Source: Zygnema cylindricum (taxonomy: Eukaryota; Streptophyta; Zygnematophyceae; Zygnematales; Zygnemataceae). Taken from it: a stretch of DNA of 64,000 nt. A program made the position numbers and the translations under genes. Each line of letters begins with the position of its first letter. Positions within the stretch are counted from its first letter, which is position 1. A model generated the notes under the pieces. It was given only the letters and a program-made list of their open reading frames with translations. It had not been told where the DNA came from and did not search any database. Location of the stretch: the NCBI GenBank assembly GCA_037447655.1, contig JBBHKE010000993.1, positions 1 through 64,000 on the forward strand. Reading direction: 5' to 3'. Shown here piece by piece: positions 15,135-51,209 of this stretch.

Positions 15135-15145
15135 GGTTATGGGCC
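15135..15145 (+). promoter_or_regulatory. Primer-binding site, initiator-Met half-tRNA type
   Basis: GGTTATGGGCC directly follows the LTR. It is complementary to the anticodon region of eukaryotic initiator tRNA-Met (GGCCCATAACC). Priming by the 5' half of this tRNA is the documented mechanism for Drosophila copia and relatives. Confidence 0.75.
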
Positions 15146-15930
15146 TGTCATCAAGAATTCCTATCTTTTCCGGGGATAAGTATGTTTACTGGGCGGATAT
15201 GGTGGAGACACATTTTGAGAATGTCAATCTTATGGATATATTGGATGGTTCGCTGGATGAATCTGATCCGTCATGGTCTAAGAAAAATACGCAAGCTCGT
15301 TTTATTCTGAAATATTGTATATATAAGGACTTAGCTATGTCTCGGATAAAAATGAAAAAAGTAATCAAAATCTGGAAATCCCTTAAAAGTGATTATGAAA
15401 AGGCTAATGTCCAAATGAGCTTCTATTGGCTGGAAAAATTTGGGACTATAAGTACACTGGCGGTACAATGGCTGATTATTCTAACAAATTTCGCATCCTT
15501 TTAGATGCACATGCTTGTGCAGATTTCGTATCCTTTTAGATGCACATGCTTGTGCAGGTGGGGTGTTTCCTCTTTTTCAACAGGCAGTATTGCTCATGAG
15601 GGGTCTCCCTCGTAGTATGAAAGGAGCATTTGACATGCTCAAACAAAAAGATAAAGCTAGCTGGACTTTACAGTTAGCAATCAATCTTTTAATATAAGAG
15701 GAAGCTACATTTTCTATTCTCAATGTTGAGCAAGTAGAGGTTTTTAATTCAGACCTTCAGAGAAAATGACAGTTTAATCAGCAAAAGAATCAGTTTAATC
15801 AGTTCAGACAGTTTAATCACGGTGGAAATAGACAATCCAACAATGCATGCTTTTATTGTAGTGAGAGAGGTCATTGATAAAAATTTTGTCCTAAGCTTAA
15901 AAAAGCTAACGATACAGGTTTACACAGGCC
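15139..15930 (+). pseudogene. Copia-A element 1 gag, broken
   Basis: The first frame (15139-15504) begins MGLSSRIPIFSGDKYVYW, the typical Copia Gag N-terminus that folds around the nucleic acid (UBN2/DUF4219-like). The frame breaks near 15500, where a segment of about 40 bp is duplicated (TTTCGCATCCTTTTAGATGC then TTTCGTATCCTTTTAGATGC). A second frame (15515-15697) continues Gag. A CX2CX4H zinc knuckle (CFYCSERGH) lies at about 15848-15875 but is followed by two consecutive stop codons before the last Cys. Not functional. Confidence 0.75.
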
Positions 15931-15933
15931 GAG

Positions 15934-17793: not shown

Positions 17794-18846
17794 TGTCGTG
17801 CATGGCAGGGCTATCGTGAAGGACATGCATTAGGCCTAGCTTGAGTCGCCGAAAAAACACCAGAATGTATTCAATCAACCTATATGTATCGTGTTTGTGA
17901 CAACATCCAACATACAAAGCATTTATACAGCGAAAAAACAATAAATGAATCTGCCGGGAAAAACAACTATTCAAATCACATGAACTGAGAACAACAAAAG
18001 GTAAAAGCAAGGTAAGGTAAGTAAGGTTGGAATTCTATTTGCGACAGTGACCACTAGGCCCTGAAGTCTTTAATATTCCCTACAAGAGTCCAACCATAAG
18101 ACGATAACTCTCCTCCAGCCAGATGAAGACACCGAGATAGCCGGCGTTCCACAAGATCAGACCAAAGGAGAGCTGGACCGCAAAGTTTGCGCTCCGTTAA
18201 CAATAAGACACTGAATCCGCACAAACCACTCATTCACCACGGCAAGTAGACAACAGTCTGGAGGGAAACCTTGCAAGCTGGCTTACGCCGGTAGATTAGG
18301 TAAGGACTTGATACAGGAAAAGATCAGAAGCTCAGAGACAGTTACCAGCATAAGCTATGGTCCGGAAAGCAAACCCTAACTCACAACTAGTTGTCACTAA
18401 AATTTAGATCAAAACCCTAAGTCTCACAAGTTCGACAAATCCCGACGAAAAAGCTTGTAAGGAAGCGACAACGCTCCAATGTTGGATTCCCGTGTTAAAA
18501 TTTGTCATTTGTCCTAGCATGCCATTTGGCATTTATCGTATGCTTTGTGCTAACCGTACAAAACGCTGCCAGTTCCTAGAGACGCCCGCTACGTGGCCGT
18601 CTGGGATGCCTTACATCCACACCTCGAGGATAAAAACCCTCCCTACGCTAAGCAAAAATAAATGCATGAACCTCCGAGGGTCCACGACTTTGACATTTGT
18701 CCCGTTAAGAGCCGTTGAGTTCTAGGCATCCAAATGCCGTACCGCGGCCCGGTTCCATGTGGATTCCGTACAGACCTGTTACGTCACAAAGGCACAATTA
18801 GTATGGGTTCAATCAATAATACCCGCCGACGTATTACGGCATGACA
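17794..18846 (-). repeat. Gypsy LTR, intact-length copy 1
   Basis: Read on the minus strand it starts TGTCATGCCGTAA and ends TGCACGACA, so TG...CA ends are present. It is the same sequence as 23371-24469. On the minus strand a TATA-like TATAAATG lies about 150 bases before its end. Two bases (GC) separate it from a partial second copy at 18849. Confidence 0.75.
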
Positions 18847-18848
18847 GC

Positions 18849-19092
18849 TGTCGTGCATGGCAGGGCTATCGTGAAGGACATGCATTAGGCCTAGCTTGAG
18901 TCGCCGAAAAAACACCAGAATGTATCCAATCAACCTATATGTACCGTGTTTGTGACTGCATCCAACATACAAAGCATTTATACAGCGAAAAAACAATAAA
19001 TGAATCTGCCGGGAAAAATAAATATTCAAATCACATGAACTGGGAACAACAAAAGGTAAAAGCAAGGTAAGGTAAGTAAGGTTGGAATTCCC
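18849..19092 (-). repeat. Gypsy LTR, 3' quarter only
   Basis: The last ~245 bp of the gypsy LTR, joined on the minus strand directly downstream of a G-rich tract (the plus strand shows AATTCCCCCCCTCC) that follows the PHD reading frame. The same junction exists at 24472-24716. Confidence 0.7.
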
Positions 19093-19106
19093 CCCCTCCA
19101 AGCTCC

Positions 19107-19322
19107 TTAGTTTGTAAGAGAGCTGGGAAAAACAGCAGGCAGGTCGCGACATCCGTGGCAAAACCATTGCCCATCCGGAATAGGTTGCAAAGGTGGAACT
19201 AGACACTCCATGTGAAACCCCAGATTGCAATAGTCACAGAGCAACATTGTTGTTTCTCCATCAGATCGCCGGCACAACTGACACTCAGTGGCCTCGGTAA
19301 TCGGCATCCTCCACTCATTATT
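19107..19322 (-). pseudogene. PHD-finger end of a gypsy Pol, fused to a Copia remnant
   Basis: 66 codons containing a complete C4HC3 PHD finger: CQLC, then LLCDYC, then GFHMEC, then WFCHGC, with all eight ligands in the right order and the Trp before the last Cys pair. It is the C-terminal tail of the gypsy polyprotein, as in 24729-25238. Upstream on the same strand the gypsy sequence stops abruptly at about 19320 and Copia-B integrase sequence begins, so the two elements are joined by a rearrangement. PHD fingers usually read methylated or unmodified histone H3 tails; here the ligand is unknown. Confidence 0.8.
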
Positions 19323-20557
19323 ATTTTAATGGGGGTTTCATGCAACTTCTCACTCCAGGCTTTGTATTCTTTGAAGTAAGTTGGTGTTTCTGACTTTGTT
19401 TTTAGAAAATAAACTCTAGAGTATCTAAACTAATCATCTGTGATTGTCAACATATATCTTTTCCCTCCAACTGAGGGTACCCTTGCTGGTCCCCAAATAT
19501 ATGTGTGGATCAAATCTAGTATTTTTTCACCCCTATATGTGGCGGCTTTAGGAAAAGGAAGTCTGTGAGCTTTTCCTTGGGCCCAACCACTACAATCATC
19601 CACCATTTCATTATCACTGAAGTGAATGCCTTTTAACACACTCAGCTTCTTCATCTCCCTCAACCTATCAAAATGCACATGCCCCAACCGCTTATGCCAA
19701 ATCATCAATTTTGGGACACCAACATAGTAAGCATTCTTCTTTTTATTACTCAAGTTAAGCCTAAACATTCCTTGGCTACCCTTATCTGCAATGAAGTAAA
19801 CTTCATCCCTATACTTGGCTGTACAAACTCCCTTTCTAGAGAAAGTATCAAACTCTTTGTCATCTAACACAGATGTAGAAACAAGATTTTTACTCGGCTG
19901 AGGAATATAAAGCACATCTGAGAAAGTGAGAATAAAAGTCTTACCCCCCACTAAAACTTTCAAGTCAACTGATCCCACTAGATTTGTAGTAACAACTCTC
20001 CCATCCCCATACTCTATTTCTACAGTAGGGATTTTCTTTAGCTTAGTGAAGAGGTCCTTTTCACGACACATATGCATGGATGCACTTGAGTCGATGATCC
20101 AACCTTCCTGTGGAGCTTCCCGAATTGCTCCAAGGGCACACTTTTGTCTCCGAGGGATCTCTTTCCCCTCCAGACTCTCGTCAAGAAGAAGCTCCCTATC
20201 CTCCTCAGAGGACTCGTCCTCTTTGTCTCCTGTCACCTTTGTGACCAAAAGTGCCTTTTTCTTCCCTCCGGAAGAACTCCCTCTTTGGTTCTCTTTGAGC
20301 CTCAACTCCGCCAACCTGGCAAAATCTGCAATAAAGTTCTCTGGCTTTTTGCAAAAATGACATAGGCCCTTTGGGGGCCTCAGTCCTCCAAGTTGGACTC
20401 TTTCTCCTTTGTATGGTTTTTTCGGTTCCGGTCTCCACCTGTCCCCTTCGGCGGCTAGAGCTTGAACGCTCTTTCCACCTCCCCTGATCTCCATGGTATT
20501 TTCCTGCACAAGTATCATCTTGACCACTGTATTCCACTTCCATGAACTATCAGTCAT
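19323..20557 (-). pseudogene. Copia-B element 1 pol fragment (zinc knuckle, protease, integrase N-part)
   Basis: 375-codon frame. Around residues 66-79 CHFCKKPENFIADF is a CCHC knuckle whose His and last Cys are replaced. The protease motif is WIIDSSASMHMC (Asp-Ser-Ser rather than Asp-Ser-Gly). The GAG-pre-integrase part has LMIWHKRLGHVHF and a mutated zinc pair (CSGWAQGKAHRL). The frame ends in the first part of the integrase core (YMLTITDD), and homology continues about 100 bases to 19323, where the gypsy PHD fragment begins. RT and RNase H are absent. Confidence 0.8.
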
Positions 20558-20560
20558 TTC

Positions 20561-21215: not shown

Positions 21216-22241
21216 TGCAATTATGTGTCCTCCATTGGACTACAAAATACAGGAAGCCTCTAAGTAGTTGTTAACTAGCCCACTTTAACCCACAGCCACT
21301 GCTGGCCAGGCAATCAAACTGACAATCTGAATGCACCCTTGTGCAGCCTGGACTCCCGTGAGTCCGTGGGAAAAATAATCTCTGAAAACGCCCAACCAAG
21401 CGATAAGTTATGAGGCAGTAAAAAATGCCAATTTGTACAAACTCTCAAAGGGAGAGGTGAATGCCTTCCAAAATTTTCTAAGTCCTGATTCCCTCTAATA
21501 ACTTCTATCTACTGAAGTACGAACGAATCAGATTACTGTATCGTACCAAAAAGTACTACTCTCGGTGTAACTTTTGTATGACGTATGTACGACACGACTA
21601 TTAAGCGGACGCGTGTCTCCTTTTCACTCGTCCGTACATTCCTCGAAATTCCTATGACCGAATGTCATCTCTCCACGTGGCTCCAGGTCATGCCACGTCA
21701 CTAAACGCCAAAGTGACTACTCCGGGATTTTGGCGATGATGTGCGCCGTTAGATTTGGAGCGAGACACAATCTTGGCCGTAATAAATACTTGCGCAATAT
21801 TTGTTTCGTTGTCGAAACAAAATGCGTGGTATTCGTTTTGAAATGGTACATTCATAAAATTTTATCCATGCACGCCGTACACAGTTTTAGTTAAATGGAT
21901 TTGCTCCTTCCTAAATATATATATATCTATCACATACTATAGCATTTAGCATTGGTCCTAGTCTAGTAGGATAAAGCTGACCACTATCGGCCAGCTTGAC
22001 GAACCGCAGGTACTGGGATCAAATCCTGGGTCCGTCAGGTATATTTTTAGTAGCCTTAAAAATATCTGCCAGTTGAAGTAAGGCAGCCATGGATAAACCA
22101 CTCTCTCTATCCTTCAGCGACTTTAACAAGTATGGGGGCTATAGAGAGGAGGTGTAGAAAGGCTGTTTGTCCTTTTTATTTTTCTTTTATACTAACATTT
22201 TAAACCTAGAAAATACTCTAGAAATCTATTAATTTCAACAG
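21216..22241 (-). repeat. Copia-B 5' LTR (about 1 kb) with an embedded tRNA-like module
   Basis: On the minus strand it starts TGTTGAAATTAATAG and ends ATAATTGCA at the primer site. The stretch 21954-22217 is homologous to 34768-35036 and 52783-53023; U5-side sequence matches 13781-14424 and 45181-45560. It was inserted head-to-head against the truncated Copia-B element that begins at 22242. Confidence 0.7.
21954..22030 (+). other. tRNA-like module inside the LTR
   Basis: GGTCCTAGTCTAGTAGGATAAAGC resembles a tRNA D-arm/A box and GGATCAAATCC (22016-22026) a B box, with the normal spacing of about 45 bases. It lies antisense to the LTR. Two further LTR copies have the same arrangement. It may be a SINE captured by the LTR. 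Confidence 0.5.
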
Positions 22242-23370
22242 AGAACACTATTGAGAATCGGAGAGGAGGTATGAGAATTCAAGCTCTAGTTGCAGGAACG
22301 GACCGGTGGACAAAGGATTTGAGGAAGCCGTACTACAACTTCAAAGGAGAAAGAGATCAGCTTAGAGGACCGAGGCCCTCAAAAGTTCTTTATCATTTTT
22401 GCAGAAAGATGGGACAGTTCATAGCAGAGTGTACCAAATTGTCGAAGCTCAGGCTCAAAGAGAACCGTGGAGGGGGTTCTTCCGGAAGCACTTGTGGTCA
22501 CACAAGTGAACAGAGAGACCGAGGAGGACGAGTCTTCTGAGGAGGAGGATGGGGAGCTCCTTCTTGACGAGAATCTTGAGGAGAAAGAGATCCCTTAAAG
22601 ACAGACTTGTGCTCTTACAGCCATTCGGGAAGCTCCACAGGAAAGATGGATCATCGATTCAAGTGCATCCATGCATATGTGTGGCGACAAGCACCTCTTA
22701 ACAAAGCTAAGAAAGGTCCCTACTGTAGAAATAGAGTATGGGGATGAGAGAGTAGTTACTACAGATCTAGTGGGATGGTAGATCTGAAAGTCTTAGTAAA
22801 GGGTAAGACTTTTATACTCACCTTCTCAGATGTACTCTACATTCCTTAGCTAAGTAAAAATCTTTTCTCTACGTTTGTGCTAAATGACAAAGAGTTTGAT
22901 ATCTTCACTAGATAGGGAGTCTTTAGAGATAATTATGGGGATGAAGTCTACTTCACGGCAGATAAGGGTTGCCAAGGCAGGTTTAGGCTTAACCTGAGTT
23001 ATGAAAAGAATGATACTTGTTATGTTGGTCTTCTAAAGTTGATGATTTGGCATAAGCAGTTCAGGGCATGTTTATTTTGATAGGCTGAGGGAAATGAAGA
23101 AGCTAGGTGTAGTAGAAGGCATTGAGTTTGGGGATAATGAAATGATGGATGATTGTGGTGGCTGTGCCCAAGGAAAGGCTCATAGACTCCCCTTTCCCAA
23201 ATTTGCCAAATATGGAGGTGAGAAAGTACTATATCTGATCCACACATATATCTGAGGACCGGCAAAAGTACCTTCAGTTGGAGAGAAAAGGTATATGATG
23301 ATAATCACTGATGACTAATCTAGATATTCTAGAGTGTACTTCCAAAAAACAAAGTCTGCAGCACCAACTT
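22242..23370 (+). pseudogene. Copia-B element 2, gag-pol 5' part, heavily broken
   Basis: Begins in Gag (GGMRIQALVAGTDRW), with a degenerate knuckle (YHFCRKMGQFIAEC). It continues as protease WIIDSSASMHMC and the GAG-pre-integrase region, but across at least eight stops and frame changes. Several stops stand where the sister copy at 19430-20557 has Gln or Lys (for example LYIP-stop-LSKN against LYIPQPSKN). It is interrupted at 23370 by the gypsy insertion and resumes at 33793. Confidence 0.8.
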
Positions 23371-24469
23371 TGTCGTGCATGGCAGAACTATCGTGAAGGA
23401 CATGCATTAGGCCTAGCTTGAGTCGCCGAAAAAACACCAAAATGTATCCTATCAACCTATATGTATCGTGTTTGTGACAGCATCCAACATACAAAGCATT
23501 TATACAGCAAAAAAAAAAATGAATTTGCCGGGAAAAACAAATATTCAAATCACATGAACTGAGAACAACAAAAGGTAAAAGCAAGGTAAGGTAAGTAAGG
23601 TTGGAATTCCTATTTGTGACAGTGACCACTAGGCCCTGAAGTCTTTAATATTCCCTACAAGAGTCCAACCATAAGACGATAACTCTCCTCCAGCCAGATG
23701 AAGAAACCGAGATAGCTGGCGTTCCACAAGATCAAACCAAAGGAGAGCTGGACCGCAAAGTCTGCGCTCTGACAACAAGAAGACACCGAATCCGCACAAA
23801 CAACTCATGCACCACGGCAAGTAGACAACAGTCTGGAGGGAAACCTTGCAGGCTGGCTTACGCCGATAGATTAGGTAAGGACTTAATACAGGAAAAGATG
23901 AGAAGCTCAGAAACAGTTACCAGCATAAGCTATGGTCTGGAAAGCAAACCCTAACTCAGAACTAGCCTGTCACTAATATTTAGATCAAAACCCTAAGTCT
24001 CACAAGTTCGACAAATCTTGAGGAAAAAGCTTGTCAGAAAGCGACACGCTCCAATGTTGGATTCCCGTGTTAAAATTTGTCATTTGTCCTAGCATGCCAT
24101 TTGGCATTTATCCTATGCTTTGTGCTAACCGTACTGCTACACTTATTTCTATGTGTCTCTGAGCGTGCAGGTTTCTATGCTCAAACGCTGCCAGTTCCTA
24201 GAGACGGCCGCTACCTGGCCGCCTTGGGATGCCTTACATCCACACCTCGAGGATAAAAACCCTCCCTACGCTAAGCAAAAATAAATAAATGAACCTCTGA
24301 GGGTCCACGACTTTGACATTTGTCCTGTTAAAAGACGTTGAGTTCTAGATATCCAAATGCCGTACCGCGGCCGGGTTCCATGGGGATTTCGTACAGACCT
24401 GTTACGTCACAAAGGCACAATTAGTATGGGTTCAATCAATAATACCCGCCGACATCTTACGGCAGGACA
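23371..24469 (-). repeat. Gypsy 3' LTR, intact length (1,099 bp)
   Basis: TGTCATGCC...ACGACA on the minus strand. The outer end abuts the AACTT target duplication. Nearly identical to 17794-18846 apart from small indels. Contains the TATA-like TATAAATG in the terminal 245-bp segment and, in the opposite direction, GGATAAAAACCC. Confidence 0.8.
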
Positions 24470-24471
24470 GC

Positions 24472-24716
24472 TGTCGTGCATGGGAGGACTATCGTGAAGG
24501 ATATGCATTAGGCCTAGCTTGAGTCGCCGAAAAAACACCAGAATGTATCCAATCAACCTATATGTACCGTGTTTGTGACAGCATCCAACATACAAAGCAT
24601 TTATACTGCGAAAAAACAATAAATGAATCTGCCGGGAAAAACAAATATTCAAATCACATGAACTAAGAAAAACAAAAGGTAAAAGCAAGGTAAGGTAAGT
24701 AAGGTTGGAATTCCCC
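24472..24716 (-). repeat. Gypsy LTR terminal segment, extra copy before the 3' LTR
   Basis: Repeats the last ~245 bp of the LTR directly after the G-rich tract (C-run 24712-24721 on the plus strand), which may be the polypurine tract. Two bases separate it from the full LTR. The segment is missing from the other end (32950-33792). Confidence 0.75.
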
Positions 24717-24728
24717 CCCCCCAGCTCC

Positions 24729-25238
24729 TTAGTCTGTAGGAGAGCTGGGAAGAACAGCTGGCAGGTCGTGACATCCGTGGCAGAACCACTGTCCATCCGG
24801 AATAGTGTGCAAAGGTGGAACTAGACACTCTATGTCAAACCCCAGATTGCAATAGTCACAGAGCAGCATTGTTGTTTCTCCATCAGATTGCCGGCACAAC
24901 AGACACTCAGTGGCCTCGATAATCGGCATCCTCCATGGGTCCATGCTGTGGGAAAGATTGGGTAAGTAGCAAGGGGCACAATTCTTTGAATGCTCTCGTA
25001 AAGTCCGAGTGTCAGCCCCTTGTAAGCTCAATAATCCATTGGGATCAATTGCTGTAATCCTCAAAATGTGAGGTGAGACATCCGTATCGAGGGTGTCAAA
25101 TGTCTGTCGTCGCAAAAAAACGTAATCCCCCACCCGGAAGGGTTTCTGTTGTGGCCGATAGCTGCCGCTGCGAGTTGTCGCAAACCATAAGGAGTCGCGA
25201 TGTTGGGCAATCTGCAAATTTTCAAAGGCCATGGGCAT
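24729..25238 (-). pseudogene. Gypsy integrase C-terminal domain with PHD finger
   Basis: 169 codons. Residues around 36-52 (FRVGDYVFLRR) are the GPY/F-like C-terminal integrase region. Around residues 113-155 follows a PHD finger: CLLC, LLCDYC, GFDIEC, WFCHGC. The ligand that should be His is Asp here, whereas the related fragment at 19107-19322 keeps His, so this copy probably has a damaged zinc site. The PHD is the last domain of the polyprotein, in the position where chromoviruses carry a chromodomain, suggesting a role in choosing chromatin for integration (inference). Confidence 0.85.
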
Positions 25239-25845
25239 TTCCCTAGCGAAAAGTCATGCCCGGTTAGTTAGTTCTTCCAGAAAAAGAGAATCTGACATGA
25301 GCGGCAAAAGCAAACTAGCGGCTTTCTGTACATTTCTACCTAGCAATGGTTTCCGACCAAACAACACATAATATGGAGTGAAATTTGCTAAACTGGCCTG
25401 TACAGACATTCGATAACCCATGGTAATATATCCTAATGATTCATCCCATACAGTAATCTGTTTTTTAAGCAGTGTTTACGCAGAGCCCGCTTAAATGTTT
25501 GCACCGCTCTTTCTGCCAAACCGTCTGCTTGGGGATGATCTAGACTCGTTTGACAGTGATCGATCAGCGCCTCGTCCAACATCTCCTGAAATTCGCCACG
25601 GAACTCGGTTCCTTGGTCTGTAAGTACTTCTGCTGGGGCTCCATATCGGAGGAGAACATGCTCTTTGAACGCTGCAGTGGTAAGTTTGGCAGTTTTTTGC
25701 GGGAGGGCCACAACTTCCACCCATTTACTGAAATTTTCAATCATTATCATAATATATTGCTTGCCCTTTCGAGAAATAGGGAAGGGACCGGCCAAATCGC
25801 ACGACCACCTGTAAAAGAGACCTCGAATAGGCAAGGTTGAAGTGT
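25239..25845 (-). pseudogene. Gypsy integrase core
   Basis: Frame 25433-25834 shows the rve fold with WSCDLAGPF (first Asp), VLTDQGTEF (second Asp) and HPQADGLAERAVQ (catalytic Glu). A one-base shift in an A-run near 25470 moves the rest (TVWDESLGYITM, FTPYYVLFGRKPLLGRN) to another frame, and a TGA near 25252 interrupts it again. The HHCC zinc region lies upstream in the RNase H frame (HTDLGHYG ... CSTYDRL). Confidence 0.85.
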
Positions 25846-27745
25846 AGTCTGCCGGTTAGAAAAGGATGTCCGTAACCGATCATATGTGCTGCATTCCTGC
25901 AACACAGATGCTACGTCGTCCTGCATGCCCGACCACCAATAGCGCGCCTGTACCAAACTCAAGGTTGGTTTGGTACCATAGTGCCCAAGGTCGGTATGTA
26001 TCTGGTTAATGAGAGATAATCGCTCCGTTGGCCGAGGGATATGACGACAGCTTCCATCTGTGAGAAGACGAATAAGTGAGCCCCCCATCCATAAGTAATT
26101 TTGGGCTCTCTTTCGAACACGCTCCTCCTCCGTTGGTAAGGTTCCCGTCCGAAAAGACTGAGTAGAAAGAAAAAGAATCAAAGCACTGTCCCGCCATGGA
26201 TCGTGTTCGATTTTGTGGTTCGTAGGAGCCGCAAAACTGTAAATCAGATGCGCTCCCGCTGATAAGGAGGCAATTGTTTCGCCATCAAAATCATGTCGTA
26301 CCCCATTGTCAGTGGAGTTGGGCAAAGGGTTCTTGGAGAGCCCGTCGGCATTCAAGCTGAGGAGCCCGCGTCGATGGATTATTTCTATATCATATTCTTG
26401 TAAAATAAAAGCCCAACGGGCTAACTTGCCAGATATCTTGTCATTGGTTATGAGCCAATGCAATGGTTGGTGGTCAGTAAGGAGAGTAAAAGGCTTGCCA
26501 TAGAGATAATGTCGGAAATGCACAATGCCCCAAACTGCGGCGAGGCATTCTCCCTCGTAACTGCTGTAATTTGATTCCACTTGATTGTTGCTTCTACTGG
26601 CGTAGGCCACCACAAATTCCTCACCGGTGAGTTCGCGTTGAGTTAGGATAGCAGCAATACCGGGCTTACCAAAGTCATTCTGTAGACAAAAAGGTAATTT
26701 ATGATTTGGTAGACGAAGAATGGGAGCAGTGGACAGCGCGTTATTTAAACCTTGGAAAGCTTCTAACTGAGTTGGTCCCCAAGAGAACATAACTGATTTT
26801 TTTAGAAGTTCATTCAGTGGAGATGCAAGTGTAGTGAAACTGGGGACGAACCTACGGTAATAATTAGCCAATCCGAGAAATGCCCGCAGACTCGTCAGAT
26901 CACTTGGGGCAAGTAGATTAGAAATGGCTTCCACTTTGACTTCTAATGGAGTAATTCCCTCAGATGAGATAAAATGCCCAAGGTATGGGACCCTTTCGGC
27001 CCCGAAGGTACATTTAGCAGGATGACATTTAAATCCTACTTTTTTCAATTCCTTCAACACCCACTCTATATGAACTGCATGTTCCTCTACAGTAGCCGAA
27101 GCGATTATCAAATCGTCGATATAGCAACGGGCAAACTTACATCCCCCTAAGACTGAGTCCATGACCTTTTAGAATACCGCCTGTGCATTTTTCGGTCCAA
27201 AAGGCATAACCGCCCATTCCCAACGTCCGTCACTACCCCAAAATGCAGTCTTGTGTCGGTCCTTTTCCTCTATCTCGATTTGATTAAAACCATGTCGCAA
27301 ATCTAGAATACTAAAATGTTTAGCTCCTCCGACATGATCAAAGATGTCCTCTGCCAACGGCATCGGGTGTCGGTCCTAGATGGTACGTGAGTTTAGTTCT
27401 CGATAGTCTCCGCACATTTGACGTTCTGTAAAATATCCCTCCGCGTCTTTTTTACGAGGCGAAACGGTGGGCGCCGCGAAAGTGGAATCAGACCTATAAA
27501 TCAGACCTGCCTCTTCTAATTCCGCTCATCGTTTGTCCACAGACTCCCATTTAGTTTCTGATAGACGATGTTTGGGCTTGAAGATGGGTCTGTCATCTTC
27601 CAGGTCAATAGACATCCTGTACATGGTGTGTCGCCGCAAGTCTTTCATGGAGAAAGCGAATGCGTCCATATGTCGATTTATGACTCCATTTAAAAGTTCG
27701 TGTTCAGTCTTTGTTAGTCCAGGTCCAAATTTCCATGTTGGTTTT
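25846..27745 (-). pseudogene. Gypsy reverse transcriptase and RNase H
   Basis: RT starts near 27740 (HELLNGVINRHMDAFAF, then IFKPKHRLSETKW), passes a TGA near 27535, then APTVSPRKKD, DYRELNSRTI, a TAG, then FSILDLRHGFNQIEI. After a TAA at 27166 comes the catalytic block CYIDDLIIAS (YIDD box). The RNase H domain follows (LQNDFGKPGIAAIL, YASRS, NYSSYEGECLA, LLTDHQPLHWL), and then the integrase zinc region. The frame 25747-27162 is open for 471 codons; its last ~30 codons are out of phase. RT and RNase H catalytic residues are recognisable; the stops make it inactive. Confidence 0.9.
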
Positions 27746-28157
27746 TCGAAGTGCTAACTGTCATGGCTTCCATGGCTAGTGCAAATGCTAGTTGTTCATC
27801 CGCTATTAAGGAGTGACCCAACTCATACTTGACTGGAAGTTGATGCAAACAGTTTACTGCGTGATGCCAACTTCTAGATGGGAATGCGGCTTTCCAGTGT
27901 GGTGATACCTGTGGAGGTGCCTGAGACCTAGCGGCTCTGTATGCTGGGAGCGACCAACTCATGTGACTGGGAACCAAAAAATCATAAATAGTGTGCGCTG
28001 TATCAGACTTAGCAGACGGAGGAAAGAGAGAGAGCTGAAAAGTTGTACCCTGGAGAGAGGGTAAGGGCTTAGATGCCGTATGTTTAAATGGTGTATGCCC
28101 CCCCCCAGCTGATTGAGACGGATTGTTCTGTGAGTATCGACCAGCTGCTAATCGCAT
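27714..28157 (-). pseudogene. Spacer between methyltransferase and RT, including methyltransferase C-terminus
   Basis: Directly in frame with the methyltransferase, separated from it by one TAG. The first residues (GMRLAAGRYSQ) align by eye with the last conserved motif of DNMT3-type enzymes (R-L-A...G-R). The rest (about 130 codons) is Ser/Pro/His-rich with no recognised domain. A one-base shift near 27740 joins it to the RT. Confidence 0.6.
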
Positions 28158-29477
28158 TCCAAAGACAAATGAAAGTGACTAGGGATCCATGACCCGACCG
28201 AGTAAGGTACAGCGCTGCCGCTCGGTGAGTCCCGGAGCGGCAGTGGTGCCCGGGATAAAATGTAAGAGGTGATCTTGTTTTGCAGCAGTGTGTTCTTCTA
28301 AGCTGCATGTATGAGTATTTTGAAGCATGCCTGGTCCGTTGTGTGAATATGCGTGAGAATGTGGATATGAGACTAGTGTAGGAAGTGCACGTAGTGGTTG
28401 GCCAGGAATGTTGAGACAGAAAGCAGGAGGATAGTCTGTCTGAATGCAGGTTTGGACTTTATGAAATGGGAGTAGTGCATCCTGAATGGAAAGATTAGGT
28501 GGACGGACAGCAAGGTTAGCTTCTCGGAGCCGACCCATGTCTACCAGGTTAGTCCACTTGGAACGAACCCTGTGAGCCAGCGAACCGTGGCGTGCGGCAT
28601 CGATAATTAATGGTGGTCCAATCAGTGATTCAATGCGTTTGTAATCTGCGAGGACCGTGGGTCGGGGATCATTATAAGCTGCGATATTTTCTAAAATGTA
28701 CCCAAAAGAACGGTTCCGTGTTTGGAAGAAATGGATAAGGCACACCATCTGGAAGAACAACTTAGTACGCGGATCTGCGAGACCTAAACCTTTTCCGGCC
28801 CTAGACATCCCTTCACATTCCCATCCGACAAACAGAAGATCTGTTGGTTCCAATTCCAACAAATGGTGGTTTCCTATTAGACGGATATCCTGTGGTAAAG
28901 CCGAATGCATGTCATAAAAAGCGGACTGTGGTAAGAGGTGAGGATATTGTTCGTGCAAGATTTGACAGTGGTGTAACTGGGCGCGTCTGGCCAAGGGGTC
29001 AATATCTACGGAATAGTAATGCTTTATAAGAAGACCGTTCCGAAGGGAAGAGAGAAGTGAAGTTCCTATTCCTGCAAAAAGGTCTAAGATAACGAGACCG
29101 TTTTGGTGAGGTTGAAAACTGACATGTTTCCAATTAATGGGAAGGAACCCAGACGAACCCATCGTAATCGAGGGTGGATCCGGGATGCTCGGTAAAGGAA
29201 TTGGTATAGTGAACTTATAAAGTCGGTCAAAATCTGAAAAATTGATAGTAAATCCAGGTGTGCTAAATAATTTTGGTATTCCCAGAGGATCTATCGAGAT
29301 TTCTTTCGCTGTTAAAGATTCAAAAATATCCGCTCCTATGCCAATTGCGGCATAAGCGTGTAAAGTCAGCGCGGAATGAGTCGTAGTAGGCATGGGTTGC
29401 CGGGCCGATATAAGAGGTAAGCATATTTTGAGCTCAGGAAAGTTGTTTGGTTTATAAGAAAATGTTTGATCATGCAT
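28137..29477 (-). pseudogene. Cytosine-C5 DNA methyltransferase (DNMT3/DRM-like) within gypsy Pol
   Basis: A 432-codon open frame (28179-29477) followed in frame, after one TAG, by the last motif. Residues about 129-140: LVILDLFAGIGT, the SAM-binding motif I. About 155-165: YSVDIDPLARR (motif II). About 214-240: DLLFVGWECEGMSRAGKG, motif IV, with the catalytic Cys at 221 but Trp-Glu before it instead of the usual Pro. About 261-266: ILENIA, the ENV-type motif VI. About 300-313: LAHRVRSKWTNLVD, matching the AHRARYFWGNLPG-type motif of DNMT3. About 416-428: LTERQRCTLLGR, then, after the stop, the terminal motif. The motif order is that of DNMT3, not the permuted order described for plant DRM. 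Fused downstream of the protease and upstream of RT. No PWWP or ADD domain is visible. Predicted to methylate cytosines; specificity unknown. Confidence 0.9.
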
Positions 29478-30249
29478 ATCACCCCCCCGCCCCTACGCGA
29501 AAAATCACGTCTTGGCCAACGAGGCATTCATAATAACTACACATTGTGACCAAGGCATAAGCATATATCTCTGCGAAATCTGTCTCTGAGTGACTCTAGA
29601 ACTGGAAACAGACTGGTTCTTTTGTAATTCCAAGGACCGGTTCTATGGTGCCTGCTGAAGTCAACAGGCGTGTGGTTGTAGGTTGTATTTTTTCTGCTGT
29701 CAGACCTATTCTGATTGCAAGAGTTGACCCGAGGATAATCGGTTTCACGCTTGTGTCCATTAAAAGTAATGCCGCGGCAACCCCATTAACTGTGAATACC
29801 CCGCGCGTGTTGTCCAAAAAACTTATGTGTGGTGTAAGACTAGCGCGCTCTTCAAGAGTGATTGCTTGAAGAGAGAGAGAGTTTCGATTATTCTGAAGGG
29901 CTTGTAGTGCATGTGCAGATTGATCAAATTTAGTTAGATTTGCAGATTTGGTGTCGCTCACCAGATCCAGAAGCATGGTGGACAATATAGATAATCGTTC
30001 TTTGACTCTATAGGTTTCTTGGATACTTTTCTCTAAGATAGTTAATGCCTCAGCGGTGATGTTGAAGGCGGTTTTCTGAATAGGTGAGAGTGGTTCTTTA
30101 GCAAATGATAATGGAATACAGGTGTTAATGGATTTGGACTCGCGGTTATGATCGGAAATCCCTTTAAACTGAGCTCCCTGCTGTTGAATAGTGGACTCTC
30201 GCAGAGATCGACCTGCAAAGGACGGTATGTGAACCACGGTTCGAGCCAT
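29478..30249 (-). pseudogene. Gypsy aspartic protease
   Basis: 217-codon frame (29596-30249). The C-terminal third holds the retropepsin fold: GVFTVNGVAAALLLMDTSV, with the catalytic Asp-Thr followed by Ser instead of Gly, then VKPIILGSTLA. It is in the same frame as the end of Gag across a TAG at 30271. After a TAG at 29596 the frame stays open to a G-run near 29484, where a one-base change would join it to the methyltransferase frame. Protease and methyltransferase were therefore probably one polyprotein. Confidence 0.75.
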
Positions 30250-30270
30250 TCCAGATAATTGCGGTTTGAC

Positions 30271-31793
30271 CTACGCCATTAAACCGACAAACTGCTCCTT
30301 CATCATGGCTCCAACGGTAGCTTGCAACTCCGCTTTATCTCGATCCTTCCTACTGATTTTGGGAGGTGTGTCTTTGTCTACCTCTTTAGGTGGGGTGACC
30401 AATTTTGCCGAGCGTGCAGGTATACCGCCATTTCTAATTTGATTTTGATAACTGAAATCGGGGTTTTTAATATGACATCTGTGAATGTAGTGACCTATTT
30501 GGTTACAATGAGTACACGTGGCTGTATTATCTGGACAGCTGCGCGCGTCGTGACCAGTGTTACCGCACCGGAAGCAAATACGCACCCCGGGGGTCGTTGG
30601 GAGAGATCCCATGGCCGAGACTCTTGGAGGTCTGGGTTTGTCCATGGGCGCGGGTTAGGATTCGAATTTTGATTTAGATTCGGGTTATCCCGAGGAGAAG
30701 GCTTAGGCCGCTCGTGAGCGTCCCACCAGCTGGTCTGCATTTCATACCTCACGGCATATTCTGCAGCCTGCTCGAAGATGAATTTTAGACCATATGTTTC
30801 AGTTAGATGACTTTGAATGAACCGCCGAGATTGGGTGGGAAATTGTCCCACGAATTTTTGGACTGCCTCCGCATCTGACATTAGGTCAGGCAGGGCTTCA
30901 CGTAAGGTTTCCATACGTGCTCGCAGCGCCGGGGCAATTTCGTTCGGTCTGCGTTAGAAATTCATTAGTTCTTTGACTTGGTCAAGATTTTGCATTCTGT
31001 ACTCTTCCTGTAACAAACTAAAAACAAACGAAACCGGATCTCGGAGGGGAACCTGCATGGCTACTCGAGCAGGGATTGCTGCCCGAGCCGCCACCGCAAA
31101 TTGCTGAGCAACCTCCGGTATTTCTGGTGAAATTTCAATACCGGTAGAGTCATAAACTGCCAGAACTACAGCTTAAAAAGGGATTTTCGGGCTGCCAGTT
31201 ATGGCCGGCGAGCCGGGATGGGCGGGTGTCATTTCAGCCATAGCACAAATCGCCGCATATTTCCGAGTGTAGAGCGATAGGGCCGACCCCCTTAGGTATC
31301 CTCCTAGCAAGGAAAAAGCTACACGCAAATCATATCGATCTTGATATCGGAATGCAAGATCGCACATCTCCGTATCAAAAAGCATGCGAAAATGGGACAC
31401 AGACATAGTGTCCTTGAGACCCGAAAAACAAAACTGATTTCTACCTCCTCCGGTGTCCATGGACGAAGCCATGTCCACGTTGAAGGGGCTTGCGTTAGTG
31501 TGTATGGTTCCGCCCACCTGAAAGAGTGATGGCGGTAAGTTTAGATCCCGGATATCAAGGGAATCTATGTCAGAATCTTCCCCCCAACTGTGGGAAGAAG
31601 TCGAAGACACAGATGATGTAGTTCTGTCTGTTGGAGAGATACCCGATCTGAATCTGGGTGAGCCCGTAAGTTGAGACTGATCGGCAGGATAGGGAGATTG
31701 TAACGGAGAAGATCCGACAAGAATGGAATCCCTGGCCGGTCCGCGGGAAAGACTCGAGCTTCTAGTGGTACCTGTCGGATAGAGTAAATTATT
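30271..31793 (-). pseudogene. Gypsy Gag with two CCHC zinc knuckles
   Basis: Open from 31793 with no in-frame ATG before 31610. The capsid-like region (31173-31610, then after a TAA the segment to ~30955, then after another TAA 30914-30495) includes SDAEAVQKFVGQFP. A frame change near 30640 leads to the nucleocapsid CFRCGNTGHDARSC and CTHCNQIGHYIHRC, two perfect CX2CX4HX4C knuckles, and a Lys/Asp-rich tail ending at a TAG. The knuckles bind genomic RNA in related elements. Broken by at least two stops and one frameshift. Confidence 0.8.
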
Positions 31794-32949
31794 CTAGTCT
31801 GTTGGCATGTAACCAGCCAGTCGACCTATTCGGATGCAATTATATGACACACACTAATCAAGGTCAGTGAGCAAATACCCACCGCCAGATCTACCAATCA
31901 ATCACAGAAGAAATATTCTAATTCACACAAACAGACACCACCCTCACAATTCGGTCTATTCTGTATCACCAGGGTTAATCTAATTGCGAACCCCCCTAAC
32001 AAGGCCGTTCACAGCCAGATCTACGCAGCCCTCAAAAATTCACTCCAAACCACACCAAAAAGAAAACATGTCGCCTATTCAGGGCCACTTGGGCCAGATT
32101 TAATAAAAGCAAAAAACTATCAGGGCCAACAAGGCCAGATGTAGAGAAAAAACAGGAAGCTACCAGGGCCAACAAGGCCAGATGTTATAATCAAGAAGTC
32201 GCTATCCAAGACCACTCACGGTCAGATCTAAGAGAATGCGACGAATGACTTATACGAACGGAAGGCACAGCCTTCGGTCGACGATAAACCCCTCTAAACG
32301 ATCGCACTGAACTACCTACTTTGCGCCTGCACCCACAAGGAACCGAGAACTCACCTTAGATAGCACCAAGTATGATACTGTAATGTCTCCCCGCGAAGCT
32401 CCAACCCCTCTCCGATTTCAGATTATCGAGAAACACCACAGTTCAATGCCAAAGTAGTTAGTAGCCTGTTAGGGTACGCGTATCAACTTTAAGCCACGCT
32501 CTACCCAACTATTAAAGCAGTTATATTTTTATGTGATAATTCGTGGAAGCTAATTTATATAAATAAATATATATAATTTTTTTTTCTTGGTTTTTGATAT
32601 GTTTTTTTTTTTTTTTAATTTTATAAGTTTTTAGGTTTGCTAGGTTTTCTGAGTGAGTTAATCCGGTAGGCAGACAGAAAAGAGAAACTATACCGGATTT
32701 ACAAACAAAATCAGAAAAATCGAACCCAGAGCCCACCAAGCAACGAAACCCTAAAAATTGAAAATAAAAACAAATTAAAACAATCCAAAGAAAACCACTA
32801 GACAAGGAAAGAAAACAAACAACTAATTAATGCTTGAGTGAAAAAGAAAAGCAAATTACAATAATTAGACAGAAAGAAAACAAAATGCCACAAGGAATAA
32901 CGAAAATTAAGAATGAGACAAATTTTAACACGGGAATATTTTCGACAGT
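31794..32949 (-). other. Gypsy 5' leader with GGCCAGAT repeats
   Basis: No coding frame. Between about 31990 and 32230 the minus strand repeats ATCTGGCC(T/C)TGTTGGCC words at irregular 50-60 bp spacing (clearest at 32085-32180). An A/T-rich segment with a T-run lies at 32520-32640. A word related to the inside of the LTR (CCGTGTTAAAATTTGTC on the minus strand) occurs right at the LTR junction near 32920-32945. Confidence 0.6.
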
Positions 32950-33792
32950 GACCACTAGGCCCTGAAGTCTTTAATATTCCCTACAAGAGTCCAACCATAA
33001 GACGATAACTCTCCTCGAGCCAGATGAAGAAACCGAGATAGCCGGCGTTCCACAACATCAGACCAAAGGAGAGCTGGACCGCAAAGTTTGCGCTCCGACA
33101 ACAAGAAGACACCGAATCCGCACAAACAACTCATGCACCACGGCATGTAGACAACAGTCTGGAGGGAAACCTTGCAGGCTGGCTTACGTCGGTAGATAAG
33201 GTAAGTACTTGATACAGGAAAAGATGAGAAGCTCAGAAACAGTTACCAGCATAAGCTATGGTCGAAAAGCAAACCCTAACTCAGAACTAGCCTGTCACTA
33301 ATATTTAGATCAAAACCCTAAGTCTCACAAGTTCGACAAATCCCGAGGAAAAAACTTGTCAGAAAGCGACAACGCTCCAATGTTGGATTCCCGTGTTAAA
33401 ACTTGTCATTTGTCCTAGCATGCCATTTGGCATTTATCCTATGCTTTGTGCTAACCGTACAGCTACACTAATTTCTATGTGTCTCTGAGCGTGCACGTTT
33501 CTATGCTCAAACGTTGCCAGTTCCTAGAGACGGCCGCTACGTGGCCGCCTTGGGATGCCTTACATCCACACCTCGAGGATAAAAACCCTCCCTACGCTAA
33601 GCAAAATAAATGCATGAACCTCCGAGGGTCCACGACTTTGACATTTGTCCCGTTAAGAGCCGTTGAGTTCTATATTAAAATGCCGTACCGCGGCCCCGTT
33701 CCATCGGGATTCCGTACAGACGTGTTACGTCAGAAAGGCACAATTAGTATGGGTTCAATCAATAATACCCGCCGACGTCTTACGGCATGACA
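32950..33792 (-). repeat. Gypsy 5' LTR segment lacking the last 245 bp
   Basis: Matches the first ~843 bp of the 1.1-kb LTR (TGTCATGCC at 33792). The remaining TATA-containing segment is absent here but present as an extra copy at the other end (24472-24716). The outer edge abuts the AACTT target duplication. Confidence 0.75.
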
Positions 33793-34742
33793 ACTTACTT
33801 CAAAGAATATATAGCATGGAGTGAGAAGTTGCACGGAACCCCCATTAAAACGACAAGGAGTGATAATAAAGGAAAATATACCTCTAACCTGTTTGAGGAA
33901 TACTTGAGGGATGAGGGGGTTCAACATCAAAAAAAATGTACTGTATAATCAAGAACAAAATGGAGTAGCTGAATGGTTGAACCGGACTTTAAGAGATAGT
34001 GTATGTAGTATGCTGGCCGACAAGAAAGCAGGGAAAAGGTTTTGGGCAAAAGCCATGAACTCTGCTAACTACACTAAGAATAGAGTCCTTACCTCAACCA
34101 TAAAAGGAATGACACCTTATGAGAGATGGGTTGGAAGGAAATCAGATGTTTCTCATTTGAAGGTATTCTGTAGTCAAGTTTACAGTCTTGATACGAATAG
34201 GAAAAAGAAGAAACTAGATGCCAAAAGGAAACCTGGATATTTTTTAGGATATGATGAGGATGTCAAAAGATATAGAATCTATGACTTAGCAATACAAGAT
34301 ATCATTCTAGTAAAACACCTAGTTGTCATGGATGAAGGGAAGTCATTTGATCCCTTTAAATATACGAAAAAGATAAGTGTCGAGCTCTCTGTCTAACTGG
34401 AGGGCTGGCCAAATTTCTGCAGATTCGGGGAAGCCATCGGTGCCATCGGTTTCTCCTATAGGTGGAGGACAAGACCCTCCAAATCTCCCAAGTCCTTCCC
34501 CAATTTCTCCTCTTCCGTCCACTCATCCCATTGGGATGTCAACTGAAGATTTCCCCACTCTAGCAGAATTCGTTGAGCGAAGACGAGCTTCTCGGCCATT
34601 TCCACCAATTAGGAGGGCTTCACATTCTCCTTCTTCTTATTCGGCAGCTTCCACTAACTCTCCTATAACTGGACCAGAGCATTACATTCTTGATCTCCTT
34701 GAGCATTTTGATATGTCTAAATGCAATTCTGTGCCTACTCCT
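33793..34742 (+). pseudogene. Copia-B element 2, integrase and linker, resumed after the gypsy insertion
   Basis: Sequence continues exactly where 23370 stopped (TYFKEYIAWSEKLHG). The integrase core has RSDNKGKYTS, then a stop, then the frame 33911-34396 with NQEQNGVAEWLNRTLRDS (the Glu is followed by Trp rather than Arg) and VGRKSDVSHLKVF. A Pro/Ser-rich linker follows (34377-34680), then a jump to the late RT word FDMSKCNSVPTPC, directly abutting an LTR. Most of RT and all of RNase H are deleted. Confidence 0.8.
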
Positions 34743-35700
34743 TGTAGAAATTAATGGAATTTTAAAGTATTTTCTAGGTCTGAATAGAAATAAGAAAGAA
34801 GCCGAGGCAGTCTACCTCTAACTTCTCTCTCCAACTCTCAAACTTGTCGCAGTCACTGAGAAATTGGAGAGGAAGCTAGAGCCATGGCTTACCAAGGTAA
34901 TCCAGAGGTTTACAGGAAAATATACTTTAGTTAGGGGTTTAATTTACTAAAAGATATGTGCCGGCCACAGGATATGATCCTAGTACCTACCGGCCGGCAG
35001 ACAGCCGGTAGCCTTAGCCGTTAAGTCTAGAAGTAGTGTTACATTTATAGGGTTTGATAATTATTTAAACATTTATACGTAGAAAAGTTCATTTAACTAT
35101 AACTGATTACGGGAGACATATATCCAGTAAATGTAAAAGTACGAATTCCGATACGGATAAGAAACCAATACCGCGCATATATTTCTTTAGTGAAACGAAT
35201 ACCTCGCATGTATTTATTACGGCTACGATTAAATGTGAATTTAATCGGACGGCCGGAATTAACGTCGAGATCGCGGAAGAGGATTTCGGCGGTTTGTGGT
35301 CATCGCCACATCGGATGACACGTGGCGGAATGACATTGGATCGCGGCATCTCCGAGGATTAAGGGAGCGAATCCGGACATACCACGTGTCGACATTTAGG
35401 CCATGTCGTACAATGGCCGTACATAAAGTACACCGGCTGCTGTAATTTTGTGTACGAAACTGAAATCTGATTGGCTCCGTACATCAGTAGATAGAGTGTG
35501 TGAGAGAGATAGGACTTAGAAAAATTAGAAGATAGGACCCTCTCTCCCAGAGAGCTTCTGTACAAAAGGTCAACTTTGACCCTCCATAACTTACTGCTCA
35601 GGGGAGCAAATTCAGAGATTCTTTTTGCTATCGACTCAGGGGAGTCTTGTCTTCACAAGGGTGAAGTTGGTCAGAGTTTTTGTCTGCCAGGGTGGCAGTT
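34743..35700 (+). repeat. Copia-B LTR with tRNA-like module
   Basis: Starts TGTAGAAATTAATGG and follows 21216-22241 (inverted) through TATTTTCTAGGTCTGA, the tRNA-like part, CATTTAACTATAACTG, the GTCGTACAATGGCCGTAC block and the GACTCAGGGGAGTC U5 hairpin. The right end is not sharply defined (about 35700). Confidence 0.65.
34968..35036 (-). other. tRNA-like module, second copy
   Basis: On the minus strand GACTTAACGGCTAAGGC (A-box-like) is followed about 40 bases later by GGATCATATCC (B-box-like). Antisense to the LTR, as in the other copies. Confidence 0.45.
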
Positions 35701-36558
35701 TTTTTTGCTGAAACACAAAGGGGTCAGGGTTATCCTAGAGGCTTCTTGGAAGCTGTCCACTTTGAGGACTTATGGAGGTCTCAGAGTTTCACTCCTCTTG
35801 CTCCTAACACCACCCTCACCAAAATGTCCTCCGATCGGAATGCCCAAGGAGATATAAGCTCAGTTTATCGGTCCATTATAGGAAAATTGATGTATGCTAT
35901 GCTTGGTACACGGCACGATATTTGCATCGCAGTTTGTCTTTTGTCTCAATTTTTGCATTGTGCCACTCAAACCTATATTCAAGCCGCCAAGCGTGTCTTT
36001 CGCTACCTCCAAGGCATAAAGCGTCTTCATCTCACTTTTTCCCATCTTTCTCCTCCCTCAACTTCCCCCTCTTCCTTTTTCTCGGACACTTCTATTATTG
36101 GTTTTTGCGATGTGGACTGGGGTAATTAACCCGAAGATCGTCGCTCCATTTCCGGTGTGTGTTTATCTTTAGGAGGCGGCCTTGTCTCTTGGTCGTCCCG
36201 CAAGCAAGTCACAGTTGCTCTTTCCTCGATGGAGGCGGAATATATGGTCGGTACTACCGCCACGAAATTGGCTATTTGGTTCCGACACCTTCTTTCCAAT
36301 CTCTCTTTTCCTCCTTTTTCTCCCACCTCCATTTTTTGTTATTATCAAGGAGTATTGGCTCTTATGAAAAACTTTATCCATCATACACGCACTAAGCATA
36401 TAGATATCCAATTCCACTTCACTCGTGACAAGATACTTGATGGCACCATTTCCTTCTCTCATTGTGCCACCGGCTCTCAACTTGATGATTTCCTCACCAA
36501 ACCTCTCCCTCGCCCCTTATTTCATCATCACATTTTCCATATCGGTCTTCGTGACTAA
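35701..36558 (+). pseudogene. Copia-C RT C-terminus and RNase H
   Basis: From about 35830: SSVYRSIIGKLMYAM, then DICIAVCLLSQFL, AAKRVFRYLQGIK and IGFCDVDWGN, followed by a TAA at 36127. The next frame continues in register with RRSISGVCLSLGGGLVSWSSRKQ, SSMEAEYM and HTRTKHIDIQFHF, ending LTKPLPRPLF. This is the Ty1/Copia RNase H with its Asp, Glu and Asp acidic residues. 35701-35830 has no recognised domain. Upstream pol is absent, so the segment is a 3' remnant. Confidence 0.85.
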
Positions 36559-38070: not shown

Positions 38071-38287
38071 TCATCCTGTCACGAGGCGACATCTCAACGC
38101 TGACCCATCCTGTCACGAGGCGACATCTCTACGCTGACCGGTGAGAAGTTGGAGAAAACAGTGAGTGTCGAAAAGTGAGAACGTGTAAAAATGTCACGCA
38201 AGGTTTTGCGACATTCAAAAGCATTTTTTTACAATTTGGTGCATCATCACAGATTGTACATTGGCGATAGTCGTCACTGGCATTGTC
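38070..38287 (-). repeat. Short tandem plus R1a remnant at the Copia-A insertion site
   Basis: CATCCTGTCACGAGGCGACA occurs twice about 36 bases apart (38072-38140). From 38210 the minus strand follows the R1a repeat (ACAATCTGTGATGATGCACC) up to the Copia-A insertion at 38287. Confidence 0.5.
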
Positions 38288-39051
38288 TGTTGTTCTACAA
38301 CCACCGGTGCAGGTGGAGGAGCAGCAGTAGTAGTAGAAGTAGACATGATACACTCTTAGAAGCTATCAAGAATCCTACCAAACAGCTGTTCTTAAGTGCT
38401 CACCACTTCTTATACAAGCATCCAAACCTCACAACACTCTATCAGAATATAGAGTAGAATAAACACTTATAACTCCCAAAGTTATAGCACAATTGACCCG
38501 ACAACACTCAAGATATAATACTCAGAAGTTTCCCAAAAATTGTCTACAGTTTTACTACTTGGAAGTCTGGATACATCATGTGTTCTGAGTCCTAAGTCTT
38601 ATACTAGTGTTGTACCGGCAATACCAGTGTACCTGAGAGGTACGTCAAGCTGCCAAGCTAATACTAAGCTACCACTGAGCTACCACTAAGCTACCATTGA
38701 GCTACCACTGAGCTAACTAGAATCGTATCTATCGTAGTTGCTCTATCCTGTACAGAATCACATTAAGAATATCAGACGTTGCGTTGTCCGTACGGACCAT
38801 ATCAAATATAATCGTGGTTGCCTTGTCCTGTCTGTGTTGCAGCTTCGCTGCTGCGCTGCTCTGCTGTATAGCAGCTGCTCTGCTGTATAGCAGTTGGGCT
38901 GCTGTATAGCAGTTGCGCTGCTGTATAGCAGCTGCGCTGCTCTGTTGTATAGCAGCTGCGCTGCTCTGTCTGTTGTTGTATAGCAGCTGAGCTGCTCTGT
39001 TGTATAGCAGCTGCGCTGCTCTGAGACTGAAAGCTTTCCAAAAAGACAACA
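38288..39051 (-). repeat. Copia-A element 2, 3' LTR
   Basis: TGTTGTC...ACAACA on the minus strand, 764 bp. Includes the GCTGTATAGCAGC palindromic microsatellite (about 38845-39020), ACTGAGCTACCACTAAGC-type short tandems (38660-38715) and a CT/ACT-rich end. Confidence 0.85.
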
Positions 39052-39063
39052 CTCCCCAAAAGC
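39052..39063 (-). promoter_or_regulatory. Copia-A polypurine tract
   Basis: GCTTTTGGGGAG on the minus strand directly before the LTR start TGTTGT. Confidence 0.65.
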
Positions 39064-39211
39064 TTTAGACTCAGTATCCCAACGCAGCTGCGGTGATACA
39101 CTAGCGCAGCACCGCAGCATAGCAGTATAGCAATTACCAAATCACCCAGTCCCACTATATCTCAATGGTGGATTTATCGCAGAGTGGCAGTATAGCAGTG
39201 CATCAATTCAA

Positions 39212-40760: not shown

Positions 40761-40765
40761 AAGGC

Positions 40766-42346: not shown

Positions 42347-42347
42347 T

Positions 42348-51190: not shown

Positions 51191-51209
51191 ATCTAAAAAA
51201 TCTCCCATC

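Follow-up and report, generated by a model that had tools for sequence, protein, structure and literature searches.

A high-copy Ty3/Gypsy retrotransposon family of Zygnema cylindricum with a predicted DNMT3-type methyltransferase within Pol and split terminal repeats

The window, the whole stretch of 64,000 nucleotides from a contig of Zygnema cylindricum that was analyzed, contains on its minus strand a Ty3/Gypsy insertion that splits a copia element, and a related copia copy at 19312-20503(-) represents the empty site (Table 1). The element was assigned to Ty3/Gypsy based on the order of protease, reverse transcriptase (RT), RNase H and integrase, the latter of the rve type, and on its TG..CA ends and short target site duplication (TSD). 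In place of two matching complete terminal LTRs, however, it has split direct repeats in the arrangement B-coding-A-B-A. An assignment to the DIRS or tyrosine-recombinase elements, for which a tyrosine recombinase and no TSD would be expected, is contradicted by the rve integrase and the 4-bp TSDs. The Gag region of the window copy had no Pfam match, and the match of its protease region was weak; both domains are plain by position and motif in another copy in the genome, C1344, which reads LMDTGAKPIILGS in the protease region and in which one uninterrupted frame, 2395 codons long, runs across the domain joins. The window copy, given its several stops and frame breaks, including one inside motif X of the methyltransferase, is a fossil. 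Elsewhere in the window there are several Ty1/copia copies (14506-17800, 19312-20560, 22241-23370 with 33796-36558, and 38287-42842), two of which match each other as near-inverted repeats (about 89-94% identical in pieces), and a probable host gene with long introns at 51000-57000 (+) that has a weak peptidase S41 match below the cut-off (PF03572, 4.3e-4). Rfam and tRNA scans of the 64-kb window gave no matches.

Table 1. Features of the Ty3/Gypsy insertion and of a truncated relative, in window coordinates.
Feature	Position	Strand	Remarks
Whole Ty3/Gypsy insertion	23371..33792	-	10,422 bp; TG..CA ends; splits copia copy; junction letters
4-bp TSD, 5' side	33793..33796		AAGT in element sense
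4-bp TSD, 3' side	23367..23370		AAGT in element sense
B1, 5' terminal repeat	32937..33792	-	94.7% to 23611-24472, alignment
Gag region, broken frame	30498..31793	-	Assigned from its position and its match to the open Gag of C1344
CCHC zinc knuckle	30274..30654	-	PF00098 3.2e-5
Aspartic protease region, broken frame	29493..30270	-	Weak PF13650 0.11, below cut-off
DNMT3-type C5 cytosine methyltransferase (predicted)	28182..29492	-	Core about 28182-29150
Premature stop within motif X, window copy	28179..28181	-	
Motif X beyond the stop; linker to RT	27717..28178	-	
RT, RNase H, integrase H2C2; RT part broken	25750..27753	-	PF17917 1.3e-31, PF17919 1e-27, PF17921 6.2e-13, PF00078 5.7e-9
DDE integrase core	25436..25855	-	PF00665 3.2e-13
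C-terminal PHD finger	24771..24905	-	PF00628 2.2e-8; best PDB match PHF12 1.2e-12
G-run, taken as polypurine tract	about 24715-24724		Just before A1
A1 repeat	24472..24714	-	93.8% to 23371-23610; directly behind G-run
B2 repeat	23611..24471	-	Joined to A1 through palindromic junction ACAGCTGT
A2, 3' terminal repeat	23371..23610	-	
Second truncated copy, same A-B-A end	17794..19313	-	91% to 23371-24935

The original prediction described a 432-codon methyltransferase frame between the aspartic protease and the RT. That frame was found on the minus strand at 28179-29477, in one direction with the protease region and the RT that enclose it, and all of the motifs quoted for it are present (DLFAGIG, DIDPLARR, the motif IV cysteine in WECEGMS, ENIA and HRVRSKWTNL); the proposed check against PF00145 gave a match of 2.8e-7 (30.7 bits versus a cut-off of 22). 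The limits of the open frame stand, but the ATG at 29477 is not to be read as a start, given that in C1344 the domain lies within the single long frame. At its other end the window frame terminates at the premature stop in motif X, and since the chain reads on across that point in P0002, P0003, P0004 and C1344, it is the window copy that is broken there. A PDB search with the methyltransferase matched DNMT3A at 3.6e-7 and HhaI at 0.38, and its profile matched DNMT3A at 7e-23 versus DNMT2 at 2.1e-4. The alignment with DNMT3A runs in order from motif I to motif X, with first and last stretches that are weak alone, and includes the catalytic cysteine, the glutamate of ENV/ENI and the unpermuted motif order of the DNMT3 enzymes, the window copy being cut in motif X. 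The best 50 rows of a Foldseek search with the predicted fold were all DNMT3, and a separate AlphaFold model of the whole frame, built from a six-row alignment, was poor (pLDDT 47.3). Based on these sequence and fold comparisons, the enzyme is a predicted DNMT3-type cytosine-5 DNA methyltransferase. Of the earlier DNMT3/DRM-like label only the first half was retained: a DRM-like origin is ruled out because DRM2 aligns over motifs I-IV only and the motif order is not permuted. There was no DRM or DNMT1 row among the matches of the VIA list, which by itself excludes neither of them. Among viral contigs there was one distant match (28%), and among plasmids six weak bacterial matches, three of them annotated as cytosine methyltransferases. 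It is also conceivable that the enzyme acts on RNA in the manner of DNMT2, with the genomic RNA of the element as one possible substrate, as RNA methylation was raised for LINE-borne DNMTs in the discussion of PMC5890265; with a profile far closer to DNMT3A than to DNMT2 and with DNMT3 alone among the best Foldseek rows, we consider this very unlikely.

The host genome (352.8 Mb in 2689 contigs) was searched with the window enzyme, which gave at least 98 matches (best 97 of 2196 candidates scored), and with PF00145, which gave at least 123 (best 123 of 782 scored). When matches within 400 bases were merged, there were at least 195 methyltransferase places among the matches listed, a count in which a second family, and perhaps some host genes, are included. 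That second family is deeply different and has the classical PCQ motif; it occurs at C1374:27224 and C544:127660 (L052, L053) in frames of about 1520 codons, is 50% identical to the metagenome protein P0002 and stands beside P0002 and P0034 in the methyltransferase tree. Light-harvesting genes gave at least 88 matches in the same genome (best 1.3e-48; 150 of 160 candidates scored), many of them clustered on C519 and C2590, which indicates that the host is a photosynthetic eukaryote. The original prediction had suggested searching for intact copies and for a shared order, and a copy with an intact frame, C1344, as well as the shared order were evident. The ten copies fetched were picked by their methyltransferase match, a choice that cannot reveal methyltransferase-free copies; in nine of them the enzyme is flanked by protease and RT. 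The sequence of the tenth copy, C46, ends after the methyltransferase, and the full series from Gag to PHD finger is present in seven of the ten. An RT-based search gave 93 rows, which are matches rather than copies (three copies yielded two rows each). A methyltransferase was located upstream in 40 of them among the matches listed, and three of the remaining 53 were probed, all three of which encode it at the expected place; no RT copy without a methyltransferase was seen among these 40 listed and three probed rows of the 93. The order common to the copies bears out the view that the domain is a regular part of Pol in this family and not an accident of one copy. The interrupted and decayed state of the window copy might in itself suggest a chance insertion of a host gene, or an assembly join, but the probability of either is negligible and we regard both as ruled out by the at least 195 places among the matches listed, by the unbroken frame of C1344 and by the occurrence of the same domain order in independent metagenome and named proteins.

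To determine dN/dS, the 19 loci with a length of exactly 1296 bases, out of 30 fetched, were combined with four more copies. Eight of the copies were free of stops, and in 15 of their 28 pairs, which are not independent of one another, dS was unsaturated and dN/dS ranged from 0.07 to 0.38 with a median of 0.12; in the other 13 pairs synonymous sites were saturated and dN was 0.14-0.23. Over all 253 pairs of the 23 copies, decayed ones included, the median was 0.24. The catalytic core was less changed than the linker preceding it in each of the seven pairs compared, marginally so in one (0.050 versus 0.053), and the EC of motif IV was invariant in all 23 aligned copies. The methyltransferase is thus under purifying selection. 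B1 and B2 of C1344 are identical across 931 bp, which identifies this copy as a recent insertion. The family is large and has been active recently, and the copy in the window is itself broken. CpG depletion was considered as a mark of self-methylation and gave no clear signal: the observed/expected ratio was 0.84 in the element, only mildly below the window flanks (1.16 and 1.08), and lower still in a copia copy (0.61), so that no special mark is apparent; in the 23 methyltransferase copies it was 0.79-1.04. Separately, in 13 stop-bearing methyltransferase copies compared with L003, with coding constraint uncontrolled, C-to-T rates were 0.128 at CG, 0.135 at CHG and 0.068 at CHH, and the reverse rates were 0.066, 0.044 and 0.055, respectively. 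There is an excess of C-to-T change at CG and CHG, as if both were methylated in the host.

In element sense, the parts are ordered B1, coding region, G-run, A1, B2 and A2, between ends that read TGTCATG..ACGACA. The identity of the B repeats is 94.7% in the window copy, 100% in C1344, 99.5% in C1915, 99.1% in C2573, 89-97% in pieces in C232 and 80% in C449, and C605 has the same repeat blocks with a nested insertion. A perfect 4-bp TSD flanks four of the seven testable copies (AAGT in the window, TTGG in C1344, CCCT in C1915 and CCAT in C232), and in two more the flanks are alike at three of four bases (TCAT/GCAT in C449, CCTC/GCTC in C2573); C605 was the one testable copy in which no TSD was found. 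A1 and B2 meet at ACGACA-GC-TGTCATGCC, which contains the palindrome ACAGCTGT. The 17 letters of this junction are exact in seven of ten downstream regions, including those of four subfamily copies in which A and B have lost their blastn match to the repeats of the window, and a 19-mer across it has 131 exact occurrences in the genome versus none for a reversed control. In the window, the junction has one mismatch in the full copy and is exact in the truncated copy. In all nine copies with A1 displayed, the distance from the G-run to the start of A is no more than two letters. The simplest reading that we infer from these arrangements is that A and B together constitute the replicative LTR, which would begin at the polypurine tract, that the cDNA would circularize, and that integrase would open the two-LTR circle at the palindromic A/B junction, leaving the integrated form B-coding-A-B-A. 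Alternatively, a linear cDNA with an unusual template switch may produce the split repeats with no circle, and it is true that integrated copies alone cannot reveal the intermediate and that a circle has not been seen; given the constant start of A beside the G-run in the nine copies displayed, and a junction that is conserved to the letter even where, as in some subfamilies, the repeats have diverged beyond a blastn match to those of the window, we judge this a possible but somewhat doubtful explanation. As for a primer-binding site of reverse transcription, CCTAGTGG recurs near the end of B, with no tRNA match recognized by eye, and a junction of 18 nt derived from a tRNA, with the end of B as a copied tRNA end, was rejected because its length differs between subfamilies (18 versus 21 letters).

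Relatives were sought with the RT. Among the best 120 of 5161 matches, 23 have a precomputed PF00145 match, including proteins of Klebsormidium, Closterium and Marchantia. Rows with <300 aligned residues were dropped, and in 71 of 122 RT hits the upstream sequence was too short to judge. In a first round, 46 RT relatives were judged: the 25 most similar (>=44.9% identity) all carry the enzyme, and below them are one more with it and 20 without. In an RT tree of 52 rows with a midpoint root, 25 enzyme rows and the metagenome protein P0107 form one 26-row group (100/100), and 26 rows without the enzyme fall outside it. In P0107 just the first part of the enzyme is matched, and weakly, and the cysteine motif is absent, as if the enzyme had decayed from recognizable form. 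In P0112, P0117, P0118, P0127 and P0133 the enzyme is positioned between RNase H and integrase, so a constant position between protease and RT throughout the lineage is ruled out. A second RT tree (57 rows, quick method, midpoint root) placed these five as one inner branch of a 31-row group (SH-aLRT 100), and their enzymes group with P0010 inside the enzyme tree (quick method, with a long DNMT3A outgroup branch); P0010, also from a metagenome, likewise has its enzyme between RNase H and integrase. In this branch the methyltransferase seems to have moved within Pol. A fresh, independent capture we had to abandon in favor of one RT group, since the trees unite the Zygnema element with the Dnmt3-bearing Gypsy of Klebsormidium. 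With the trees rooted at their midpoints, the data are best explained by one old capture, after which the enzyme moved once inside Pol. KFL_009030040 (P0113) is taken by us to be of the K. nitens KnitGypsy-Dnmt3 kind, and the RT grouping, a Dnmt3-type domain in Pol and DIRS-like repeats (those of K. nitens from a figure legend) all place the Zygnema element in its lineage. P0031, which has RT, integrase and PHD finger and is 55% identical to the family in RT-RNase H, is a EukProt transcript, so that a relative seems to be expressed somewhere. The pairing of enzyme and element looks old and lasting, having been kept even where the enzyme changed its place in Pol. The element, by these comparisons, is a member of an old lineage of which one green alga had already provided an example, and to which relatives from Zygnema, Closterium, Marchantia and metagenomes are added.

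The reading that we favor, by a small measure, is that of a decayed copy of a high-copy Ty3/Gypsy family whose Gag-Pol, with a DNMT3 between protease and RT and a PHD finger at its end, serves to methylate the element's own cDNA ahead of integration through a circle. The methyltransferase, either set free or retained with Pol inside the particle, would enter alongside the RT and carry out de novo methylation of the cDNA, at the latest during integration; the new copy would then arrive in the nucleus marked as host-like DNA, and the PHD finger may help to choose the chromatin. A wider version, in which a whole DDE-integrase lineage in charophytes, a liverwort and other hosts inherited a single methyltransferase capture and has its circular cDNA opened at the palindrome and methylated by the DNMT3 as host-like, is put forward tentatively and is rather improbable in its entirety. 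In PDB comparisons the PHD finger resembles those of PHF12, DPF3, WSTF, BAZ2, KDM5B, PHF21A and AIRE, which are readers of unmodified H3K4, as is the ADD domain of DNMT3A; if the finger were an H3K4 reader, a DNMT3 would by analogy again be paired with such a reader. This likeness, and the fact that a PHD finger was called in many of the best 120 RT relatives, could also indicate that host chromatin is the target of the methyltransferase, either locally at the insertion site or throughout the genome. Copies might in this way be confined to regions that are silent and tolerated, with unmodified H3K4 read by the PHD finger. The general expectation, however, is that Pol products remain with the particle, and action on host chromatin is in our opinion unlikely.

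DNA methylation is known mainly as a weapon of the host against mobile elements, and for this reason it is puzzling that an element should maintain, under selection, a predicted de novo methyltransferase of its own. The question would become testable in a genome such as this one, with its roughly two hundred listed places and its recent, nearly identical repeats. A second puzzle is how a DDE integrase came to work with a layout of repeats that has otherwise been described for elements with a tyrosine recombinase.

Several described systems can be compared with the Zygnema element. The catalytic domains of DNMT3A and DNMT3B are 22-25% identical to its enzyme, which differs in being part of a retroelement polyprotein with no PWWP or ADD domain seen. 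DRM2 of plants has motifs I-IV in common with it and differs in the permuted motif order outlined in PMC5890265. A 2025 paper (PMC12344493) mentions retrotransposons of the LTR Copia and DIRS types that contain DNMT3, in streptophytes and dinoflagellates. According to a 2019 paper (PMC6338049), land plants, for example tracheophytes, lack DNA-methylase transposons; the Marchantia records with the enzyme come from a non-tracheophyte land plant. Among the titles and abstract openings listed, none announced the Zygnema element or those of Closterium or Marchantia. Closterium P0029, P0077 and P0115 and Marchantia P0106 and P0114, known here from database records alone, resemble the Zygnema element in having the methyltransferase upstream of the RT and in belonging to the same RT group, although P0106 is without the motif I stretch and reads EKV for ENV. 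The five metagenome proteins of the inner branch share the RT group and differ in the position of the methyltransferase. SymbioDIRS-Dnmt3 of Symbiodinium also has a Dnmt3-type domain in Pol, with repeats given as A-coding-B-A-B, but is a tyrosine recombinase element whose capture is treated as independent (PMC5890265). In the yeast test reported in that paper, two SymbioDIRS enzymes were active, and the SymbioLINE and KnitGypsy-Dnmt3 enzymes were without activity, an outcome called inconclusive by the authors; the latter result would, by analogy, count against self-methylation by the Zygnema family. The K. nitens acquisition is described as independent of that in Symbiodinium (PMC5890265), a conclusion left untouched by our single RT group, which adds relatives. 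The closest counterpart is KnitGypsy-Dnmt3 (de Mendoza et al. 2018, PMC5890265), likewise described as an LTR Gypsy with a Dnmt3-type domain in Pol, purifying selection and DIRS-like repeats, and joined to the Zygnema element in the same RT group (100/100) through KFL_009030040. The Zygnema element differs in its genome, in which there are at least 195 methyltransferase places among the matches listed, in its branch of the group, in a C-terminal PHD finger when set against KnitGypsy-Dnmt3 as described, and in that its 4-bp TSD and palindromic junction have been worked out, whereas the K. nitens repeats are known by description only.
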